IMG/VR virus record: IMGVR_UViG_3300000270_000003
Location: 1 to 24,080 of that record
Direction: 5' to 3' (one strand)
Source: a virus
DNA: 24,080 nt
Position numbers and translations under genes: made by a program. Below the pieces are notes generated by a model, which saw only the letters and a program-made list of their open reading frames with translations, was not told the origin of the DNA and ran no database searches. Numbering within the stretch: the first letter of the stretch is position 1; each line of letters starts with the position of its first letter. Positions 380 through 23,993 of this stretch are shown here, one piece after another.

Positions 380-841
380 TTATCTTGGTTGCCCGTGTGT
401 GTGTGTGTAACTAGCTGATTTTGATTTAACCTGGGTTCCACTTGTTACCTTACAAGTTACAGTCCCTCTTTTCTCTCCTGTTGTCGCTACTGATTCAACA
501 ACTACGCTGCGGCCCGTTGTGCTTGTGCTAAATGTTGCTAACCCGGTTTTTGTCCATGAATAGGTATAAGATCCAGTCCCACCAGAAGCCGTAACCGTAA
601 AGCCGCTGGTGTTGCGGCAATTGGTAGTAGTACACATTCTATTCGTGTTTGCTGTGATACTTACTGATAGCGGTAGAAAGTCTTTGCCCCTTAAATGGCT
701 CATTGATATAGATCCCGACGCTCTACCTGCCAGGCTTCTTATATCGGTATCATGTAAAGAACAAGTGGAACCACTGGCCCCCAAAACTTCTACGTGGATC
801 TGGTTCATTGTTATAGATCCCGTACTAGGTAATCCTGCCAT
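380..841 (-). CDS. Small Ig-like tail-associated protein, 153 aa
   Basis: The N-terminal 55 residues (MAGLPSTGSITMNQIHVEVL, then DIRSLAGRASGSISMSHLRG) form a segment I recognise from many phage tail-fibre-associated proteins. The remainder is a single Ig/PKD-like beta domain (FTVTASGGTGSYTYSWTKTG, then TGEKRGTVTCKVTSGTQ) with a Cys pair in CTTTNC. It overlaps the fibre gene by 17 bases, so expression is coupled to it. Probably a host-range or fibre cap protein; the exact role is unknown. Confidence 0.7.
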   Translation of the reverse strand: MAGLPSTGSITMNQIHVEVLGASGSTCSLHDTDIRSLAGRASGSISMSHLRGKDFLPLSVSITANTNRMCTTTNCRNTSGFTVTASGGTGSYTYSWTKTGLATFSTSTTGRSVVVESVATTGEKRGTVTCKVTSGTQVKSKSASYTHTHGQPR

Positions 842-3560
842 TTTCCAACCTCTCTACTCTGCTGGTTAGTTGTCTTTTTTCCCTGTTAAGCTCTTTTATT
901 CCTTCAATTAAAAGTGCTACCAGGTTGCCGTAAGCTACTGAATAATGCCCTTGTAAATCCTTTTTAGTTGGGCCGCCTGTAACCGCTTCTGGTAAGACTT
1001 TTAAGACTTCCTGGGCGATTACTCCAACGTGTCGATCTGTTGGATTGTGTAGTGCTGGGGCTTCGTCTGGATCCGGCGTGGTGTCGGTTCTGTCGTAGGT
1101 GTAACCATTTAAACGGTCTATTTTACCCAGGGCATTAACCAGGCGCTTTAAGTTCTTTTTAACTCGAATATCTGAATAGGCCGTAACGTTGCCACTGGTC
1201 CATATATTCGTGCCCAGGGCAGCTTTAGGGGAACCGTTCTGGCACCAGACCATTTGGTGCCCACCTGCCATCGAGCCACCAGTGCCATTGTTAGTGTGTT
1301 TGTACGCTAGACCGTAAAGATTACCGAAGTTAGCACCAGTTGCGCTGATAGCGTAAGCAGTCCCCATAGACCAAATATGCCCTGTCTTATAGGAATTATA
1401 TAGGCCGTACATTCCTGCCTGCCTGTAACTAGTACTGATTATACTGATCTTGCCCGTACTTGGCTGATATTGGACACCGCGACTCGATGTGTTATACACC
1501 GTATCTCCCGATGACCAAAGCATAGGGAATACCCCAGTTGATGTGCTTGTGTTCACATCCACTTTATCCGCCCATGTAGCTGTTGCAGCATTGCCTGTAA
1601 CACTTATACCCCAAGTCCCACTTACACCTGCACCATCCGTTGTAGCTAGTTGCTTCCAAGCAGACCAAGAACTGTTGTTACGCTGCCTTATGTGTATTTC
1701 GTTTTGGTGGAAATCGTGAAAGCTTTGCACCCCGTATGAAGCAGCATCCCACATTTTTGTTGTAAGCAGACCATCATTTGCACCACTAGGTTCACCTGTG
1801 CCTGCGGATACGTCTAAAGCTTTCACTGAGTTGTATAAGATAGCATCAGGTGAAGATATACGGGAACTTAAACTACCTAAACCGTAACCATTAAGTGCCG
1901 TTGTAGTAACATACTCACTATGTGTATGCGAGTTCTTGGTTGAGCCTTGATTCAATATATACGGTGCTAAAGATGCAGGAGTATAATAACGTAAATAAGA
2001 ATCTTGAGAACAGTAAATGCGTGCAGGTGTGCCACTAGCCACTCCAGACGTAGTATTGATCCAACCTGCCTGTATGTAACCACTACCGTCTGTTCTAACT
2101 ACTCTATTGGCAAGATTGTTTCTGCCTGTATGTAAGGATAATCCCCCTAATTTGTTGGCATTATCAATCGTAGTAGGTTTGTTTATTATGTCCGTGTTCC
2201 AGTCGTGTTGGTGGGCTGCGACTACTGCGCTGGCTGGCTCGTCGGCAATAAACGAAGTCATAGAACTATTAACCGAAGAATTTAAGTTAATTTGGCCCAC
2301 GGTCTTAGTTACCACGGCCCGGACCTGGTAGTATTTGCCGTCTACGGTGCCCACTGGTTCCGTAACATTTAAACCTATGCTTTGGGTTGCTAAGTAGTAA
2401 TTTGTATAACCTGGCTCGCCGCCAAAGTCTTGATAATCATTTGAAATGGATCCGGTAATTGTTTTTAGCGTTCCTTCTGGTTCCCACTGGCCCCAGGTAG
2501 AATTATTTGTGCTGGTTCTAATGTAAAACTGTACCGTTATTTTTGGAATTTGGGTTGATTGGGTGCTGCCGTTATTCCAGTCTATACTTGCGGATCCCTG
2601 TAGCCGTAAAGTCATAACTTTACCACCGGAAAAAATAGATTCGTGGGTTATTTGAAAGTCGCCAGTTATTTTGGCCCCTACCCCGTCCGATATAGTCCCG
2701 CCAGTTGGTGCGCTTGGCTCTAATAAGCCTAGTCTTGCTCTCATGCTGGAAACTCCAGCAGCCGTTAAAAAGTAAGCGTCGCTTACGATATTGTTAGCCA
2801 GGCGACCATTAAAAAATACTTCTACGTCGCTGCCGCCGTCTTTGGTAGTGGTACCAAAAATAAGCGAGTTATTATTATTGTAAACTGCCAGGGGTACATC
2901 GGAATTACTAAGCACTACCCGCTTGCCACTTGTTGCCGTTCGTACAGTGGATCCAGTCAAGATCCCGCCTTCTAGTTCGCCAACATTTGCGCTTATTGCT
3001 GCCAGGTTATTTACTGCTATTTTTTCAGCAGATAAACTTTTTTCAACAATTAAGTTACCAGGGATAACTTGATCAATAGTTGCCCAGGCTCCACCGTCCC
3101 AGAATCGTTCTTCCGCGTAGCCCTGGGCCGTATTCGTTAATGTTACCCGATCATTAGGTTGGTTTTGTGCAAACCCGGCGTTAGTTACTGCGTTGTTTGC
3201 GTGGGTATTGTTCCAGGTTGTCCCGGTAGTTGTTGCGTAAAAATGCTGGCTACCTCGAAGTCCGGGGTTTCCTTTGTCGCCAGGGATCACGCTTTCGGAA
3301 ACTGGACCCCAGGCCCCGTGGCTCCAGCTGCTACCGTTGTGATTGTAGCGGGTAGAAGTCACCCAGGTTTTAACGCCCTGGACGTAAACAGAATCAACAC
3401 TCCAGCCGGAAGGCGGCGTTTCGGTTGTACCGTTAAAGCTGCCCCCAGATGGTAAGCTGGGTTTACTTGCGCTGCTCTTATATATAAAGCTAGTGAAAGC
3501 CCCTTCGGGGCCGTCTGCTATATCGTATAAAGTAGCGGTGCCAATAGCTGTTCTAGCCAT
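825..3560 (-). CDS. Tail fibre with S74 intramolecular chaperone, 911 aa
   Basis: The C-terminal 116 residues are an S74 (endosialidase-type) auto-chaperone: YSDIRVKKNLKRL at 795-807, RHVGVIAQEVLKVLPEAV near 843-860, and a terminal coiled coil KELNREKRQLTSRVERLENG. Ser796, followed by D-x-R-x-K-K, is the expected self-cleavage point after trimer folding. Upstream there are fibre motifs (FHQNEIHIRQRNNSSWSAWK, and a T4 fibre-like GYIQAGWINTTSG). The N-terminal part has the tip-associated SAEKIAVNNLAAISANVGEL. It is the main receptor-binding fibre candidate. Its stop overlaps the next gene by 17 bases. Confidence 0.85.
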   Translation of the reverse strand: MARTAIGTATLYDIADGPEGAFTSFIYKSSASKPSLPSGGSFNGTTETPPSGWSVDSVYVQGVKTWVTSTRYNHNGSSWSHGAWGPVSESVIPGDKGNPGLRGSQHFYATTTGTTWNNTHANNAVTNAGFAQNQPNDRVTLTNTAQGYAEERFWDGGAWATIDQVIPGNLIVEKSLSAEKIAVNNLAAISANVGELEGGILTGSTVRTATSGKRVVLSNSDVPLAVYNNNNSLIFGTTTKDGGSDVEVFFNGRLANNIVSDAYFLTAAGVSSMRARLGLLEPSAPTGGTISDGVGAKITGDFQITHESIFSGGKVMTLRLQGSASIDWNNGSTQSTQIPKITVQFYIRTSTNNSTWGQWEPEGTLKTITGSISNDYQDFGGEPGYTNYYLATQSIGLNVTEPVGTVDGKYYQVRAVVTKTVGQINLNSSVNSSMTSFIADEPASAVVAAHQHDWNTDIINKPTTIDNANKLGGLSLHTGRNNLANRVVRTDGSGYIQAGWINTTSGVASGTPARIYCSQDSYLRYYTPASLAPYILNQGSTKNSHTHSEYVTTTALNGYGLGSLSSRISSPDAILYNSVKALDVSAGTGEPSGANDGLLTTKMWDAASYGVQSFHDFHQNEIHIRQRNNSSWSAWKQLATTDGAGVSGTWGISVTGNAATATWADKVDVNTSTSTGVFPMLWSSGDTVYNTSSRGVQYQPSTGKISIISTSYRQAGMYGLYNSYKTGHIWSMGTAYAISATGANFGNLYGLAYKHTNNGTGGSMAGGHQMVWCQNGSPKAALGTNIWTSGNVTAYSDIRVKKNLKRLVNALGKIDRLNGYTYDRTDTTPDPDEAPALHNPTDRHVGVIAQEVLKVLPEAVTGGPTKKDLQGHYSVAYGNLVALLIEGIKELNREKRQLTSRVERLENGRIT

Positions 3561-8047: not shown

Positions 8048-10849
8048 TTAAAACTCCTTGCCTATTTCGTTTTGTGCGTCCTGGACCAATGAATAAATAA
8101 GGTCCCGGTTGTTTAAAATCATTTCGGCCCCGGTGCTGTCGTCTGGGGCTTGTATGGTTAAATTTACGTTAGCGTTGTTGGTGCTGTTACCAGTCTTTTT
8201 GCCCAGGAAGCCTTTAAGGTCTGCGTTAGTTCTGCTGTCTACTACTCGCTCGCCTTTATCAAGTAACCAGGTTCCTTCCCTTGGTACGTTGTCGATCCCG
8301 TCGTGGGCCATACCAGCCAGGGCGAATCCTTCCGATAAACCAACGGTTGCAGTAAGGCCAGCCATTGCCGGGGCTGAGTTAGAACCAAAGCTCATAAGCG
8401 ACGCTAGGGCTGCGGGAACGGCGTAAGCGGTGCCTAATGCTGTGGCTGTTGCTACGCCCGTGGCTGTGCTGGTTGCTGCGCCACTAACGGCTATTGATTT
8501 TTCGATTGCTGCCAGGGCTAATTTTTTAACGCCAATTTGAACAAAGCCGCTGATCAGTTCTTTAATTACTGACTTGGTAATATTTCGCATTGCGTCGTTG
8601 AAGTTCTCGCCTTCTACCACGGCAGTTCCTACGGCATCACCGATCCCCTGGGCGAAGTTGTTAAACGTGCTTCCCCACATTGCATCAAAGTTGGTTGTAC
8701 TGTCTGAAATATGCTGTTCTAAAGCTTCCCAGAACGGCAGCTGTGCTTCTTCCAGGGCCACGGTTGCGTCTGCCTGTTCTGCCAGTAACGTTAACTTTTC
8801 CCTTAGTAGATCATTAATGCCCTGTAACTTGCCGTGTTCTATCTCATAGTTAAGCTTTTGCACTTCGCTGGCATCACTTGAAAGCAGCGAAGTTTTAGCT
8901 AAGTTTTGCGCGTAGCTCTGGGCTGTAGTGGTTAATTCCTTGGCGCTTTTACTTGCTTCTTTGTCCAGGTCGATTAATTGCGCTTTTTTATCTGCTGCTT
9001 TTGCCAGGCGTAATAATTCGCTTTTCTGGGCTGGCTCCAGGTTTATATATTTACCGTTTTCTACTTCGTATTGTGCCCGTGCTAATTCGGTAGTTTGGCC
9101 CATTAAGGCTATTTGTTCCCGGTACCCAGCAGCACGATCATTAAAGGCTTTTAACTCTTTGTCTGTTTGCGGTGTTTCAGTAACGGCAGCTTTGGGCTTG
9201 GCTGCTTTGTCCGGCTCTCCCCCGGCTTCCAGGTGCCCTAACTGGGTAAGTAAGTTTTTCTGTAACTCCAGCTGTTTATTTAGCTCAATTACTGCCGTTT
9301 CTTTTGCTGCTTCGGCCTTGATTATTTTGTCGGCCCCAGCTTTGGTTTGCGTTGGTAATTCTACCCAGCGCTTAAGTTCTTTATCGTAATAACCTTTACT
9401 GGTATGGCCCAAGGTTAGGATCTGGTTGTTAAGGCTTTTAACTTCGTCTTGCTGGTTGGCTATGCTTTGGGCCAGGTCTATTTCTTTGGCTTTTAATTGC
9501 GCCAAAGTTAAGGTTTTAAAGCTTTCCCCTAGCTGGTCGATTTCGCCTTTTAATTCAGCCGCGGATCCGGCTGCGTCGTCTGAGCTACCAGAAAAAGTAA
9601 ATAGAGAAAATGCGGCAATAGCCAGGATCCCAGGAAGTCCACCTAATGCGCCAACCAAACCAGTAGCCGCACGGCTAACCACGTTTAATCGGGTTGTTGC
9701 TGCTGTTAATTGGTTTCTGGCTGCTGTTAATCGAATTTCCGCTGCGGTAGCTTGTCCGGCTCCCAGGGCTGCGGCTCTTGCTGCTGTTGCTCGCTTAATT
9801 TCAGTTTGTGCCAGGATAATATCTGCCTGGGCTGCCTGGCGGCTTATAATTATATCTCTCGCGGTTGCTGCTGTTTTATTGTAAATAGCCCCGGTTGCCA
9901 GTCCAGCCGCCGTAACTAAACCAATTTGCATTACGGTAATAACTTCTTCTACGTGCTTACTTAAAAACTCTAAGCCTTCCGCTGTACCGTCAAGACCTGG
10001 CAGTAAAACCGAATTGATCGGCACTTCCAGGGCTTTTGCTAATAAGGTGTATTGGGTTTTAATATCAGCAAATTTGGCGTTTATATTGTCGCCCATTGCT
10101 GCGGCTTTGCCTTCGTATTGGCCCAGGGCTTTTACTAACATTGTGCCGAAAACTTCGGAAGTTAATTCCCCGTCGCCTATCATTTTTTTAAGACCAGCGC
10201 TGGTGTCGTGTCCGGCGATTTTAGCAACCTTAGCCATTAAGTCTGGTAAAGGTTCTGTTACTTGCCTAAAGTCTTCCATATTGACAACCCCGGCACCTAA
10301 CGCCTGGCTTAGTCCATAGTAAACGCGGCCCAGGTCTTCGGCATTGGCACCATTGGCACTGGCGGCATTACTTAAGCCTTCAAGCATACTTCTAGCTGCT
10401 TCGTCGCTTACTATGTTTTCATTTACCAGGGTAGATAAGCGGCTGTAACCGTCGCCTAGTCCGGTAAGTTCTTTGTGGTGTCTTTTTGCCAGGTCAATTA
10501 ACCAGGCTTCTTTATCTGCGTAATCTGCGGCATCAGCGGAAAGGCCCTGTAATCGGGTTCTAATATCCTGGAATTCTGCCAAGTTTCGAGTAAGTGAAGA
10601 TCCGATCTGGAAGGCACCAAAACCCGCAGCCATACCAATAAGGGATCTGGTTACGGTTTGGGCCAACTTATTAGTAACTGCCATTTTGTTATTAGCATTA
10701 TCGGCACTACTCGCAAATTGATTGTTACTTGTCGAAGCCCTTTTAGTGGATCCGCTAAGTTGATCTATTCCTTTGGCTGCGCCTTTTACGTCGCTATTAA
10801 ATTTTCCAGTTTGAGCGTTAAATTTTACGCTAACATTGTAGTTACTCAT
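8048..10849 (-). CDS. Tail tape measure protein, 933 aa
   Basis: The N-terminal region (about 75-300) carries the tape-measure domain pattern: FQDIRTRLQGLSADAADYAD, then LVNENIVSDEAARSMLEGLS, GANAEDLGRVYYGLSQALG, and GVVNMEDFRQVTEPLPDLM. Hydrophobic helices occur near 305-330 and 395-420, long helical Ala/Gln/Lys-rich stretches fill the middle, and another Ala-rich hydrophobic region lies near 785-860. The protein sets tail length and is ejected with the DNA. It is short for a tape measure. It contains many CCWGG sites (27 counted by eye). Confidence 0.92.
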   Translation of the reverse strand: MSNYNVSVKFNAQTGKFNSDVKGAAKGIDQLSGSTKRASTSNNQFASSADNANNKMAVTNKLAQTVTRSLIGMAAGFGAFQIGSSLTRNLAEFQDIRTRLQGLSADAADYADKEAWLIDLAKRHHKELTGLGDGYSRLSTLVNENIVSDEAARSMLEGLSNAASANGANAEDLGRVYYGLSQALGAGVVNMEDFRQVTEPLPDLMAKVAKIAGHDTSAGLKKMIGDGELTSEVFGTMLVKALGQYEGKAAAMGDNINAKFADIKTQYTLLAKALEVPINSVLLPGLDGTAEGLEFLSKHVEEVITVMQIGLVTAAGLATGAIYNKTAATARDIIISRQAAQADIILAQTEIKRATAARAAALGAGQATAAEIRLTAARNQLTAATTRLNVVSRAATGLVGALGGLPGILAIAAFSLFTFSGSSDDAAGSAAELKGEIDQLGESFKTLTLAQLKAKEIDLAQSIANQQDEVKSLNNQILTLGHTSKGYYDKELKRWVELPTQTKAGADKIIKAEAAKETAVIELNKQLELQKNLLTQLGHLEAGGEPDKAAKPKAAVTETPQTDKELKAFNDRAAGYREQIALMGQTTELARAQYEVENGKYINLEPAQKSELLRLAKAADKKAQLIDLDKEASKSAKELTTTAQSYAQNLAKTSLLSSDASEVQKLNYEIEHGKLQGINDLLREKLTLLAEQADATVALEEAQLPFWEALEQHISDSTTNFDAMWGSTFNNFAQGIGDAVGTAVVEGENFNDAMRNITKSVIKELISGFVQIGVKKLALAAIEKSIAVSGAATSTATGVATATALGTAYAVPAALASLMSFGSNSAPAMAGLTATVGLSEGFALAGMAHDGIDNVPREGTWLLDKGERVVDSRTNADLKGFLGKKTGNSTNNANVNLTIQAPDDSTGAEMILNNRDLIYSLVQDAQNEIGKEF

Positions 10850-11163
10850 TAAGTGGCCTTGTTAATCGTTTTGGCATAGGTAAGGCCCATTAGTCGTAGG
10901 CCGTCAAAATGTTTTTTAGTGTTGTCACGTTGGGCCAGATCCGCTTCGGCTTTTACCTGGGCCAAGTCCAGGCCCAGGCATTGCCCGTCGAATCTCCAGT
11001 TAAGAAGATCCGCGACTTCTCTAAACCACAATAAAATAGGCCAATTCATCGGTAAAACTTCGATAACTTCTGGCCTGGTGATCTCGTCGATTAATTCCTG
11101 GGGCGCGCCTAGCTTTTCCATTTCGCTAACCGTTTCCGCTTTGTTAGGTTGTGGCGTAGCCAT
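10849..11163 (-). CDS. Tail assembly chaperone, T-like extension (DUF1799-like), made by -1 frameshift
   Basis: The frame is shifted by one base from the short form. It is open from the slippery site through seven linking codons (LKDVAEG) to the ATG at 11163, giving a predicted fusion of about 218 residues. Its sequence (LPMNWPILLWFREVADLLNW, then RFDGQCLGLDLAQVKAEADL) fits the DUF1799-type proteins found at this position. In lambda the GT fusion links chaperone to tail tube. The ATG lies in a hairpin and lacks a good ribosome binding site, so fusion is the more likely expression route. The stop overlaps the tape measure ATG (TAATG). Confidence 0.82.
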   Translation of the reverse strand: MATPQPNKAETVSEMEKLGAPQELIDEITRPEVIEVLPMNWPILLWFREVADLLNWRFDGQCLGLDLAQVKAEADLAQRDNTKKHFDGLRLMGLTYAKTINKAT

Positions 11164-11190
11164 TCCTTCGGCTACGTCTTTTAGTTTTTT
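11155..11190 (-). promoter_or_regulatory. Programmed -1 ribosomal frameshift signal
   Basis: The heptamer A AAA AAC occupies 11190-11184 in the phase needed for tandem slippage (GCA AAA AAC). A 7-base spacer follows, then a perfect 7-bp stem: CGTAGCC (11176-11170) pairs with GGCTACG (11161-11155) around an 8-base loop GAAGGAAT. All three parts match the known bacterial -1 frameshift design. Confidence 0.92.
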
Positions 11191-11504
11191 GCTGGTGCCC
11201 CGCTTGCGGCTTCCATATAGCCACGAATAAGGCCAGTTCTAACGAAAGGTATATTTATCAGGGCTGTTAAGTTCTCCTGGTTATATTCCATTTCGTCGCC
11301 GTTCTCGTCGCCAATTCCACGCCAACCAGTAACCAGGTTTGTTAATAACGTTTGGTCGCCTTCGTTAGCCAGCTGGTTAAAAATGTCTTGCTCTTTTATT
11401 TCAAATTCAACCTGGCATTTGTGCTGGGTAGTTGTCCCGCCGTCTGCTGGTTGGTGAATTGTTACGGGCCAATAAACCCGGTTGTTTTTTAGTAATTTAA
11501 ACAT
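11181..11504 (-). CDS. Tail assembly chaperone, short form (gpG analogue), 107 aa
   Basis: This gene lies between the tube and tape measure genes, as does lambda G. The product is a small beta/alpha protein (VEFEIKEQDIFNQLANEGD near 32-50) and ends in GAPAKN directly before a TAA. The last three codons GCA AAA AAC form the heptamer A AAA AAC in the correct phase for -1 slippage, so a fraction of ribosomes should continue into the next frame. The short form should be the abundant chaperone that coats the tape measure before tube polymerisation. Confidence 0.82.
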   Translation of the reverse strand: MFKLLKNNRVYWPVTIHQPADGGTTTQHKCQVEFEIKEQDIFNQLANEGDQTLLTNLVTGWRGIGDENGDEMEYNQENLTALINIPFVRTGLIRGYMEAASGAPAKN

Positions 11505-11527: not shown

Positions 11528-12451
11528 CTATTCGAAGGTAAAGCTAACTTCGTCGTTACCCGCTTCCGAAGGTACTAAGATCAAGTTAACTTCAAGAGTT
11601 GCCACGCCGTTAGCGTCGCCATACTTAGGTGATTCCAGCTGCACGTTTGGAGCCGAAACTTTACAAATTGCGCCAGGTGTTGCGCCGTGCTGGATTTCGA
11701 TTAAGCCTTGTTCTGCTGCCAGGATTGAAGCGAAATAATCTTTTTGCGCCAGGGTTGGTGCTTCGATAACTACCGAACCAGATCCGCTTCGGTCTGTTAG
11801 CATTACTTCATGGCTTGTTAGCGTTTCCACGTATTCAACGTTTTGTGCTACGTCCATTTCCAACTTATGCGGTTTAGCAGCATAGCCAAGCATTGAAAAG
11901 CCAGAAGTGCGGCCTTCGCCTGTTGGTGTTGGTTTCTTCCAAGCGCTCCAGTCTGGTGCTGGTGAAGTGCCAGTAACCGGGGCCACGTATAACGCCAGGA
12001 AGTTAAACGCCAGGTATGGGATCCCTTTGTCCATTTCCAATTTAACCGAACCACGGGCACCGTTAGCTTTGTGTAAGTTGCTGCCGATATAAAAGAAGAA
12101 GCTTGCGCTTTCTAATGCGCTGCTTGCCAGGTCGTAATCTACTTTAGTGGTTGCCGTGATCGTTTCAGCGAAGCCAGCTGCACGAAGTAAAGGACCAAAC
12201 GCCGGGGCTGTGCCAGCTGTGCCGGATCCCTGTAATTCAACTTTAAAGCTAATTGAAATATGTTCGCCTGTAATTATTTTTGATTCTGCGCCCAGGTAAG
12301 GCTTAATTAATCCGCGCTCAATAGCGTTGGCTTCAAGTGGTAAGAATTCAACGTCTTTGGCTAAGATTGCGTTTGTACCTTCTAAGGCTTCGGTTGTGCC
12401 GTAAACGGATTCAATACCCGCTAATAGCGTTTTTTCTCTAAATTTAATCAT
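11528..12451 (-). CDS. Major tail tube protein, 307 aa
   Basis: It opens MIKFREKTLLAGIESVYGTT, with GTNAILAKDVEFLPLEANAI and a PAFGPLLRAAGFAET segment near residue 85, which are hallmarks of siphophage tail tube proteins. A later region (YAAKPHKLEMDVAQNVEYV near 188-206) matches the second half of the same family. It is located right before the frameshifting chaperone pair, as in lambda (V before G/GT). No sheath gene is present, so the tail should be non-contractile. Confidence 0.83.
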   Translation of the reverse strand: MIKFREKTLLAGIESVYGTTEALEGTNAILAKDVEFLPLEANAIERGLIKPYLGAESKIITGEHISISFKVELQGSGTAGTAPAFGPLLRAAGFAETITATTKVDYDLASSALESASFFFYIGSNLHKANGARGSVKLEMDKGIPYLAFNFLALYVAPVTGTSPAPDWSAWKKPTPTGEGRTSGFSMLGYAAKPHKLEMDVAQNVEYVETLTSHEVMLTDRSGSGSVVIEAPTLAQKDYFASILAAEQGLIEIQHGATPGAICKVSAPNVQLESPKYGDANGVATLEVNLILVPSEAGNDEVSFTFE

Positions 12452-16888: not shown

Positions 16889-16910
16889 AAAAAAAGGCCC
16901 GTTAGGACCT
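16889..16910 (-). terminator. Rho-independent terminator ending the accessory island
   Basis: In the minus-strand transcript AGGTCC pairs with GGGCCT (one G-U pair) around a TAAC loop and is followed by a seven-base T run. The first bases of the stem belong to the TAG stop codon of the zinc-finger gene. It separates the island from the protease/capsid genes. Confidence 0.8.
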
Positions 16911-17727
16911 ATTTAATTTTAGTTTTACGCCGTTTGGCTGAATTTGATTTAAGAATTGTTCGACAAGGTTTGCTACAAGTCGCGGTCCTTTTTGCTATCC
17001 AGCCAGGCAAAGTAAAAAGCTCCTTACAAACAACACAATTTTTAGTTATGTTCTTCTGCTTGCCTTCGCCCATACATTTTCTTGAACAGTAGTTCTTTTT
17101 ATTTCGCTTGGTATGACAATTATTTTTAATAAATGCCTTGTTGCAATTACTACATTCAACCGTTGAAGCCGGGTTCTGTTTTGCAGAATTACTTTGCGCC
17201 TGGATTAGTTTTTCTTTTAAATTATCATCTCCATACTTTGCCACAAAATCGAAAAGCTCTGCGCTTCGGTGATTGATAGAATATATGCTTACATGGTCGC
17301 TTATACTCTTGTCTATAATGCGTTCGTACTCTTGCCATTTATCCTTAATAAACTCGGCTTTTGTTTTGGTTACTTCACCTTTTGCGTTTACCTTTACTCT
17401 GGGATCCATTCCTTTTTCGTTAACCAGGTGAAAGTTATCTTTCCCCTGGGCCACTTTAAGCGCTCGGTAATTATCACCAATAAGGCCCACGCCTACTGGA
17501 ATGTTAAATTTTACTTTGTACTCCCTGGCCGTTATCCCGTGGACCATGTAAACATGATTACCAAGTGCGCGGAAAAACTTACCGCAAATTAAACATTCTA
17601 TTTTTTCACCAGTTAAGTAAGTGGCTACCTTTTCCCTGGCTCGTTCCTTATAATCTGATTTTGAGATCCGCAAGTCTGGATCCAGTGGTGTAATGCCGTC
17701 TGGTGTTTTTATTCTGATTGGTGCCAT
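16909..17727 (-). CDS. Ros/MucR-type zinc-finger protein with two extra zinc clusters, 272 aa
   Basis: Cys45-x2-Cys48-x9-His58-x4-His63 reproduces the spacing of the prokaryotic Ros/MucR zinc finger exactly, and the sequence after it (HGITAREYKVKFNIP) follows the MucR pattern. The C-terminal half adds two CxxC...CSxxC ribbons (ECSNCNK to CSRKC, and NCVVCKE to CSKPC), which MucR proteins lack; such ribbons are common in HNH-type phage proteins, though no HNH motif is visible here. The likely role is DNA-binding regulator, less likely a decayed homing-endonuclease relative. The frame could begin at a TTG at 17766, but the ATG at 17727 with GGGGG just upstream is preferred. It is the last gene of the island; its stop is part of the terminator stem. 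Confidence 0.7.
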   Translation of the reverse strand: MAPIRIKTPDGITPLDPDLRISKSDYKERAREKVATYLTGEKIECLICGKFFRALGNHVYMVHGITAREYKVKFNIPVGVGLIGDNYRALKVAQGKDNFHLVNEKGMDPRVKVNAKGEVTKTKAEFIKDKWQEYERIIDKSISDHVSIYSINHRSAELFDFVAKYGDDNLKEKLIQAQSNSAKQNPASTVECSNCNKAFIKNNCHTKRNKKNYCSRKCMGEGKQKNITKNCVVCKELFTLPGWIAKRTATCSKPCRTILKSNSAKRRKTKIK

Positions 17728-17825
17728 GCTGCCCCCATTCCTAAAACTAGAAACATAAAAATACAACCAGCGGTAAACGATATTAGCAACGGATCCCCTG
17801 GTACCATTTCAATTAGTTCATACAT
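17709..17825 (-). CDS. Small single-span membrane protein, 38 aa
   Basis: This short frame fits between the PapB-like gene, which it overlaps by 13 bases, and the zinc-finger gene, which it overlaps by 19 bases. AAGGGG lies 7 bases before the ATG at 17825. The product begins MYELIEMVPGDP and continues with an uninterrupted hydrophobic stretch from about residue 13 to 33 (PLLISFTAGCIFMFLVLGMG), then ends AAWHQSE. One transmembrane helix with an acidic N-terminus and short tail fits a holin-like, lysis-control, superinfection-exclusion or host-membrane-modifying peptide. No family recognised. Confidence 0.6.
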   Translation of the reverse strand: MYELIEMVPGDPLLISFTAGCIFMFLVLGMGAAWHQSE

Positions 17826-21317: not shown

Positions 21318-23993
21318 TTATAAATTAGCTGCTTGTATAACGTCCTCAAGCTCTCTGCCGTCCGGCCATTTATTGTAATTCCTATCACGTAACCATTGGA
21401 TTATTTCTAGCCTGTCGGTTTCATTTACAACGACAATTTTTTCCAGGTCGTCAAATAAACTTAAGCCGTCCTTAAATATAGTTTCGTCCCTATCTCGGCC
21501 AGCGTGGTTCGCCCATACTTCCGGCGTTTCGGCTCTCTGTTGTAAATAATTTTCTTTTTGTGAACCGAAGTGATCTGTGTTGTAACTTACGCGGTCCATT
21601 CGTTTCATGTGTTTATGCGGCTTAAAGTATAACCCGGCAGCGTTAAGCCCGTTATAATTTTTGCTTTTGCGGCTCTTGATCCTGGTAAAAATAAACCCGG
21701 CCCCGCCGCCTTTATAATCGGTGTCTAATGCCTGGTCAGACTCTAAAATCCCCCTACGGTGCCTTTCAAGTAAGCTAATAAGCGTTCCACCACCGTCGAA
21801 AATAATTTTAAGCTGCTCCATCATAACTTGGCTGTTATGCGTCCCGCCTTTATCTAGGGTTCCTATAGCGTGGTAAAGTACATGATCTTTAGCCCATTTA
21901 TCATACTCTGGGGTGTCTAGATCCGTCCGTATTAAAACATTTCTTCCATGCCCAAAAGCTTGCGTAGCTTCCTTGGTCGCCCAGCCAGGTCTTTTCGATA
22001 TGTCGTAACCTACATCGTCATTGATAAATTTTAACTTAGCTACTTGTCGTTCTTTTACGTCGTCAATCTTATTTAATGCTATAAAGTCGTCGTGCTTACT
22101 CTGTTTTAAATGTGCCCAGCGACGATAAGCCGTCTGGTCTAAAAATAGTTCGGTCCTTACTGCCTTGGTCGTCCTAACATTAGGGATCCCCATTGCCTTT
22201 ATTTGGTCCAGGGTTTTATTTAATGCGGCCAGTCCTGATCCTTCTACTTCTATTTCAACATACCCATTATTATATAAATAACTTTCATCGTTAAACATTC
22301 TTATCTTTACGCCGTCTTCCGGGTTCGCTGCTAAATGTCGCCCCCCGTTTGTGTGGTGACGCTTAGAAGGATCAACCGTTATTTTTGATTTGTGGGTATT
22401 CATAGCCTTGTATTCATAACCATTTTTTTGCACGTAACTAAGGCCCTTCACAATACCTTCGACTAACTTACTAAATATCATATCTGGCAAGTCGTTGGTG
22501 TCCATCATAAAGGACCAGGGTGTAGCTGGCTTGCCTACACTCATGGTTTGATACATTCGCTTTAGCTCGACTTTCCAGTCTTCTAGCTTTGTTAATAGTT
22601 CGGGGGTTATATTCCCTTTTTCTTTCGCTTTTTTTATAACGTTTGTTATTTCAATAAGAGCATGATTAACCCTTTGAACATCGACTAATCTAAAATCGTT
22701 TCCATCACGGACCAGCGCACCAATACCACGCCCCGCGACGGTGATTTTATCTTTTAAATCAGCTAAAGCTATGTCCGGGCCTTCTTTTCCTGATACGTTG
22801 CTTTCTACTTGTTTCTGGCCTTTATCCGTAACCTTAAAAATTGCTACTGTAACTTCCTTTCCTTTTTCGTTGGTATAAGTTGAAAATCTAACGTTATGGT
22901 CTTCTATTAAATCGTCGTCTATGCTTATGCTATGCCCGTTTACTCTTGCTTCTTCCATGCTTTTTACGTCTGCAAGGGTAGCGCCTTTCGGTTTTTCCAC
23001 AATAGGGGCTACTTTTACTTCCAGGGCTTCCGGGTAAAGTTTCGCTAAATGTTCGCGCCTGGCCTTCATGGTCGCTTTAAGTGCTAACGCGTCAAACGGA
23101 TCCCTTGGCCCGTGTGTATCTATTAGATCGTCGATCTGTTCATCAGTAATTCGAAGGACTTTTTTAACGCCGATTATTAGCTGATCATGTGTACCATTTT
23201 TAAATACGCTGGCCGATTGATAATTCAATCCGTGATCCAGGAAGGTTTCAAGTTCTATTACTTTATCGTTAAATTGGTTAGGCCCTTTTAATGTGCCCAT
23301 TGCTCTATATCTTAAAGCGCCCCCTGGGTCCATTCTCACGGCTCTATTATTTACAATGACTAAGTTATCATAGTTAAGGCCCACTACGTCCCAGTTTGAT
23401 AGCCACGCGTCAACGGCGAAATTTTCGTGGATATTATCTACCAGGTTGCCAGTTAATTTGGCTTGGCTCTCGCTTATTCCTTCGATAACTTCACTAGCTA
23501 CAAAGTGCTGTCCATCTTTAGGCATATAATGATATTTAGGCGCTTCGACTCCAGCCGACTCGTAAAGCCTGGACGCTAATACTTCGTTTCGTGCTATATC
23601 TTCGGTTTTCAGCGTTTTAATGTAGTAACTTTTTCCAGTCGTGGTGTCTTTATAAAATGCGCCTGGGTTGCCCCCTGCTGATTTATCCTTATACCAAACC
23701 ATGTTATCCATATCTAATGGCCCGTCTATAACTACGTCGGGCTGTTTAACTCCGTCCAGGGCATCTTTTAGCTGTTGTTCTAGCTCGGTAGCCGTATATA
23801 ACGCCGCGTTTTTCTCGTCCTGGGCTTTGGTTATAGCTGCTTTTATTTCGCCTTGTTCCTGGTCCGTTAATTGGTCGAAGATTTCTTTTTGTTTAGGCGT
23901 TGGGATCTGTCCAGCAATCGCCTTCTTTTTATAGCCGTTAATGTGTTTCGATTTTTCCTTAAGCGCTTGTTTTTCATTTGCCAATTTCTCCAC
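21318..23993 (-). CDS. Kinase-like plus ADP-ribosyltransferase-like virion effector (891 aa, start uncertain)
   Basis: Residues 1-80 are charged and probably coiled coil. Residues about 95-330 resemble a divergent protein/lipid kinase fold of the HipA/PI-kinase-like type: Lys126 in YYIKTL, Glu137 in ARNEVL, a catalytic-loop-like stretch 195-210 (D195, NWD at 200-202, DN at 209-210) and a DFG-like MDPGG at 221-225. The C-terminus (about 700-891) resembles ADP-ribosyltransferase-type domains: LYHA at 706-709, LLERHRRGI near 742-750, GGGAGFIFTRI near 763-773 and DETIFKDGLSL at 836-846, with Glu837 a candidate catalytic residue. The middle (about 340-690) is unrecognised. Such domains occur fused to or beside MuF-type minor head proteins and can be packaged and injected, like T4 Alt. 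The start chosen is GTG at 23993; no good ribosome binding site precedes it, and an in-frame TAG lies at 24044-24042. The function is inferred from motifs only. Confidence 0.7.
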   Translation of the reverse strand: MEKLANEKQALKEKSKHINGYKKKAIAGQIPTPKQKEIFDQLTDQEQGEIKAAITKAQDEKNAALYTATELEQQLKDALDGVKQPDVVIDGPLDMDNMVWYKDKSAGGNPGAFYKDTTTGKSYYIKTLKTEDIARNEVLASRLYESAGVEAPKYHYMPKDGQHFVASEVIEGISESQAKLTGNLVDNIHENFAVDAWLSNWDVVGLNYDNLVIVNNRAVRMDPGGALRYRAMGTLKGPNQFNDKVIELETFLDHGLNYQSASVFKNGTHDQLIIGVKKVLRITDEQIDDLIDTHGPRDPFDALALKATMKARREHLAKLYPEALEVKVAPIVEKPKGATLADVKSMEEARVNGHSISIDDDLIEDHNVRFSTYTNEKGKEVTVAIFKVTDKGQKQVESNVSGKEGPDIALADLKDKITVAGRGIGALVRDGNDFRLVDVQRVNHALIEITNVIKKAKEKGNITPELLTKLEDWKVELKRMYQTMSVGKPATPWSFMMDTNDLPDMIFSKLVEGIVKGLSYVQKNGYEYKAMNTHKSKITVDPSKRHHTNGGRHLAANPEDGVKIRMFNDESYLYNNGYVEIEVEGSGLAALNKTLDQIKAMGIPNVRTTKAVRTELFLDQTAYRRWAHLKQSKHDDFIALNKIDDVKERQVAKLKFINDDVGYDISKRPGWATKEATQAFGHGRNVLIRTDLDTPEYDKWAKDHVLYHAIGTLDKGGTHNSQVMMEQLKIIFDGGGTLISLLERHRRGILESDQALDTDYKGGGAGFIFTRIKSRKSKNYNGLNAAGLYFKPHKHMKRMDRVSYNTDHFGSQKENYLQQRAETPEVWANHAGRDRDETIFKDGLSLFDDLEKIVVVNETDRLEIIQWLRDRNYNKWPDGRELEDVIQAANL

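Follow-up and report, generated by a model that had tools for sequence, protein, structure and literature searches.

Two short genes of an uncultivated virus, G and T, are very probably joined by a programmed -1 ribosomal frameshift of the lambda G/GT type. They lie in an IMG/VR virus contig of 24,080 bases (the window). The preliminary description of this DNA had proposed such a frameshift between the tail chaperone genes, and gene order, family matches and the presence of the signal in 84 homologous loci strongly support it. The features of the region are as follows:

11528..12451, minus strand: tail tube protein, upstream of G (PF18906 Phage_tube_2, E 2.4e-10)
11181..11504, minus strand: gene G, tail assembly chaperone, 107 aa, ending ...GAPAKN* (from the ORF, family matches and homologues)
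11184..11190, minus strand: slippery heptamer A_AAA_AAC, in phase with G (read from the sequence)
11181..11183, minus strand: 0-frame stop TAA (stop 'intercodon'), the codon adjoining the 3' side of the heptamer
11155..11176, minus strand: hairpin with a 7-bp stem and an 8-nt loop, 7 nt past the heptamer (from folding energy)
11161..11163, minus strand: in-frame ATG across the loop/stem border, abutted by AAGGA; unconserved
10849..11184, minus strand: T domain in the -1 frame (LKDVAEGMATPQ...NKAT*), 111 codons after the slip (from the open frame and phrog_680)
8048..10849, minus strand: tape measure protein (PF20155, E 1.9e-35), its ATG overlapping the T stop

The tail genes on the minus strand run in the order tail terminator (PF23840), tail tube, G, T, tape measure and distal tail protein, with G and T between the tube gene upstream (PF18906) and the tape measure gene downstream (PF20155). 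The G protein matched phrog_569 (E 4.9e-13) and phrog_313, 'Tail assembly chaperone' (E 1.9e-5). The T protein matched phrog_680 (E 3.9e-14), with DUF1799 falling below threshold (E 0.017). PHROGs calls both phrog_569 and phrog_680 'tail length tape measure protein'. Since their members here (11504-10849) are the G and T chaperone parts, these labels look copied from the adjoining gene. An AlphaFold model of G was confident (pLDDT 87), and its top VIA-align row was the HK97 chaperone 2ob9, a weak match (Z 3.1, 77 aligned, rmsd 4.7). Foldseek with the G model gave no significant match, and PDB sequence searches returned chance hits only. At the end of T, its stop overlaps the tape measure start as TAATG (10851-10847, minus strand), and the two signals are close together in most relatives, with the tape measure gene starting between about -17 and +8 nt relative to the T stop. 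This closeness might link synthesis of the tape measure protein to the small number of ribosomes that have frameshifted. Elsewhere on the minus strand of the window are a 285-aa protein with a ROS/MUCR zinc finger (PF05443, E 1.7e-9) and more Cys-rich motifs (16909-17766), encoded immediately upstream of the head protease gene; an 891-aa ORF beside the contig end that has no Pfam match (21318-23993); and a tail fibre-like protein of 911 aa with a C-terminal Peptidase_S74 chaperone domain (825-3560).

The 3' end of G reads GCA CCA GCA AAA AAC TAA, which puts the heptamer in the phase X_XXY_YYZ. As the preliminary description had stated, A_AAA_AAC (11190-11184, minus strand) is in the correct phase before the TAA of G, the spacer between heptamer and stem is 7 nt long (TAAAAGA, 11183-11177, minus strand), and an open -1 frame leads into the second gene. 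This frame runs CTA AAA GAC GTA GCC GAA GGA ATG ... to a TAA at 10851-10849, and is translated as LKDVAEG and then MATPQ.... The predicted junction is ...PAKN-LKDV..., and the 107 codons of G with the 111 codons past the slip would give a G-T fusion of 218 aa. The bare string AAAAAAC is not rare, with 9 copies in the window compared to 17.5 expected. In phase, A_AAA_AAC has one other copy in the 13,442 G and T codon positions of 59 distinct loci. This sole extra copy lies in the window (11490-11484, minus strand), at about codons 5-7 of G; the -1 frame from it shuts after 25 codons and would yield a short dead-end product.

Neither G nor T recovered any relatives when searched as a single protein against viral contigs. 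A search with a four-member alignment did; 80 of 170 viral contigs were kept, along with two Photobacterium genomes and further contigs, and 84 loci including the window were analysed. Homologues of G were present in the isolate phages vB-Vv-ZX4290 (Vibrio), S-CBS1 and S-LBS1 (both Synechococcus). All 84 loci carry A_AAA_AAC where G ends, and in each the -1 frame continues open into T, for about 100-116 codons where the contig was complete. The 0-frame stop was the very next codon in 83 of the 84, and one codon later in the remaining locus, L005. The signal is thus present across diverged relatives, with about 25-40% protein identity. In a more distant clade (L090-L098) the site reads G_GGA_AAC|TGA, with another valid X_XXY_YYZ heptamer in the same arrangement, and in L087 the stop lies a few codons past the heptamer. 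The -1 frame was also compared at the protein level in a T-domain alignment of the window and 16 relatives; a 17-member alignment was too diverse for a pattern search. Similarity (LxxAxxx) begins at the slip point, where LKDVAEG of the window aligns with LIDAVRS and LIEAAEH. These residues precede every start codon in the frame, and similarity across them is what their translation would predict.

These loci also bear on two other origins for the frame break. One gene could have been split by an indel, through decay or through a sequencing error, for which a homopolymer is the typical site. However, the same break occurs at the same heptamer in 84 loci that include isolate phages and two bacterial genomes; this conservation refutes an error or a decayed gene, whose probability is negligible. 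Transcriptional slippage on the A run, yielding mRNAs with an altered number of A that put T in frame, is highly improbable. The run of six A at the site and runs of seven or eight in a few relatives (L001, L005) would suit it, but in most relatives the run stops at exactly six A, with a C next, and the A runs usually needed for transcriptional slippage are longer than six. The distant clade, moreover, has just GGGAAAC, and the hairpin and the exact codon phase are conserved although polymerase slippage needs neither.

The perfect 7-bp stem with an 8-base loop that had been described downstream of the heptamer was confirmed at 11176-11155. Its arms are CGTAGCC (11176-11170) and GGCTACG (11161-11155) and its loop is GAAGGAAT (11169-11162, all minus strand). 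The hairpin has a folding energy of -11.8 kcal/mol in a 34-44-nt context, compared to a shuffled mean of -4.3 for the 44 nt after the heptamer, and none of 200 dinucleotide shuffles was as stable (z about -4.3). Against synonymous recodings, the window sequence by itself was less striking than against the shuffles (z -1.54, p 0.075). Synonymous-codon controls on 51 relatives gave a mean z of -1.90, with 94% below zero, showing that the hairpins are stronger than predicted. An 81-nt fold of the window alone was nothing unusual (z -0.96), and the stability signal is local.

Among relatives, the letters of the stem vary (CGTAGCC/GGCTACG, GCCGCTG/CAGCGGC, TGCCGT/ACGGCA) and the spacer is near-constant: 28 of 49 distinct sequences have their best simple stem starting 7 or 8 nt downstream of the heptamer. 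Column by column, RNA covariation was modest to weak, since there are two registers, 3 nt apart, in which the 3' arm pairs; each sequence was therefore folded individually and compared with synonymous controls instead. The hairpin was weak or absent in L051, L054, L058, L059, L065, L070 and L082. Since some relatives have no convincing stem, the hairpin looks like a helper rather than a requirement.

Separate translation of T, or termination at the TAA 11181 stop followed by reinitiation, would produce a free T from the ATG at 11163 (or 11121), with the hairpin modulating access. An in-frame ATG does lie 18 nt past the stop, the second gene is a separate entry in GenBank for the Vibrio phage relative, and an ATG also lies within the hairpin of Acinetobacter phage vB_AbaS_Loki. 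Even so, this route is very unlikely. AAGGA touches the 11163 ATG directly, leaving no usable Shine-Dalgarno spacing in the window; the similarity between T proteins begins upstream of the ATG, at the slip point; and the published Loki annotation is a joined frameshift gene. The hairpin ATG recurs in the Vibrio phage clade (L001, L019, L020), but it is missing in the close sisters L007 and L089, which have GTA or ATA, and the first 36 codons of the -1 frame contain no ATG at all in 38 of 59 distinct relatives. The tape measure starts of many of the same loci have a good Shine-Dalgarno, up to TAAGGAG. On this evidence, the family as a whole does not have T as an independent gene. The preliminary description had taken the ATG in the stem-loop as the only candidate start of the second gene, which folding would hide to favour the fusion. 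A second in-frame ATG of T is found at 11121-11119 (minus strand), and in the hairpin the A and T of the first are in the loop, with only the G in the stem. The idea of a hidden start is unsupported here. The ATG at 11163 is probably not a functional start, and a simpler reading of the sequence would be that T has no independent start to hide.

By analogy with lambda and related phages (PMC5009743), we infer the slippage itself, its rate, which tRNAs move and when, and its role in assembly. In the programmed frameshift, most ribosomes would translate G and terminate at the TAA (11183-11181), giving the 107-residue chaperone. The hairpin 7 nt downstream would slow ribosomes while their Lys and Asn tRNAs occupy A_AAA_AAC, and a minority would slip back one base. 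The two tRNAs would slip in tandem from AAA-AAC to AAA-AAA, and C-TAA would then be read as CTA AAA..., yielding the 218-residue G-T fusion. In lambda, G covers the tape measure protein while the T part brings in tail tube subunits; if the same holds here, the slip rate would set the ratio between them. A_AAA_AAC is much less shifty in E. coli than A_AAA_AAG (PMC5009743), and in a bacterial reporter slippage fell when the heptamer was followed at once by a stop (PMC4373837). The weak heptamer and the adjoining stop suggest that the slip rate may be low, and a heptamer that is weak in bacteria fits a low fusion ratio.

Of the remaining features, the most interesting is the stop conserved immediately past the heptamer; it may throttle slippage via release factors. 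It was found in 58 of 59 distinct loci, and its position is unchanged when the heptamer becomes G_GGA_AAC. Given the -1 residues, the Leu codon was always one that creates a stop, both where the second -1 codon begins with A (53/53) and where it begins with G (5/5; 58 distinct loci in all), although the loci are related and the joint probability of this codon choice is therefore not a real probability. The five distinct loci whose next -1 codon begins with G all use CTA, a rare Leu codon (11% of CTN), which creates TAG. The distance from slip site to stop averages 26 nt across SEA-PHAGES genomes and 36 nt for the Xu set (PMC10885494), and compared to these tail chaperone sets a next-codon stop is unusual. 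Placing a stop after the heptamer of a bacterial -1 site makes it sensitive to RF2 and reduces its efficiency (PMC4373837). Here, a release factor might compete with slippage while AAC is in the P site. We tentatively raise the possibility, which at present seems doubtful, that the stop is itself a selected part of the signal, holding the chaperone:fusion ratio low and responsive to release-factor supply. Because the stop is near-universal, these loci form a natural test set for the tuning of bacterial -1 frameshifting by release factors.

A 0-frame stop directly 3' of the heptamer is also known from the -1 sites of Rous sarcoma virus and barley yellow dwarf virus (PMC4373837), but these are eukaryotic viruses with other heptamers and unrelated genes. 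The Mu-like phages of P. aeruginosa were considered as close kin and rejected, their site being T_TTT_TTC, 43 codons before the stop (PMC4378225). The G/GT -1 frameshift is described as conserved in dsDNA tailed phages (Levin 1993; Xu 2004, as cited in PMC5009743 and PMC5313236). The window shares with lambda the order tail tube, G, T, tape measure, a heptamer near the end of G, a -1 shift, and a short chaperone with a fusion, both of which are predicted from sequence here. It differs from lambda in its A_AAA_AAC, its next-codon 0-frame stop and its strong simple hairpin. In gp12/gp13 of Loki, AAAAAAC directly adjoins the stop codon that ends the first of the two chaperone genes (PMC5313236); an AAAAAAC adjoining a stop is therefore already published. 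As in the window, the Loki stop is TAA and a hairpin follows, of -18 kcal/mol in a 53-nt stretch with the ATG inside. Both G proteins match phrog_313, although BLAST of Loki G against window G gave no significant pairwise similarity, the best family is phrog_313 for Loki G and phrog_569 for window G, and Loki has an extra gene between T and the tape measure. The S-CBS1, S-LBS1, vB-Vv-ZX4290 and Photobacterium loci, at 23-40% protein identity, have a homologous G, A_AAA_AAC, an adjoining stop and a downstream hairpin, the stop lying one codon later than in the window in one Photobacterium locus. In the records of ZX4290, S-CBS1 and S-LBS1 the frameshift is unannotated, and G and T are given as separate, mostly hypothetical genes; a clean example would let annotators write the G-T fusion correctly across this phage family. 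The site in the window is a new, unannotated example of the well-known lambda G/GT device.
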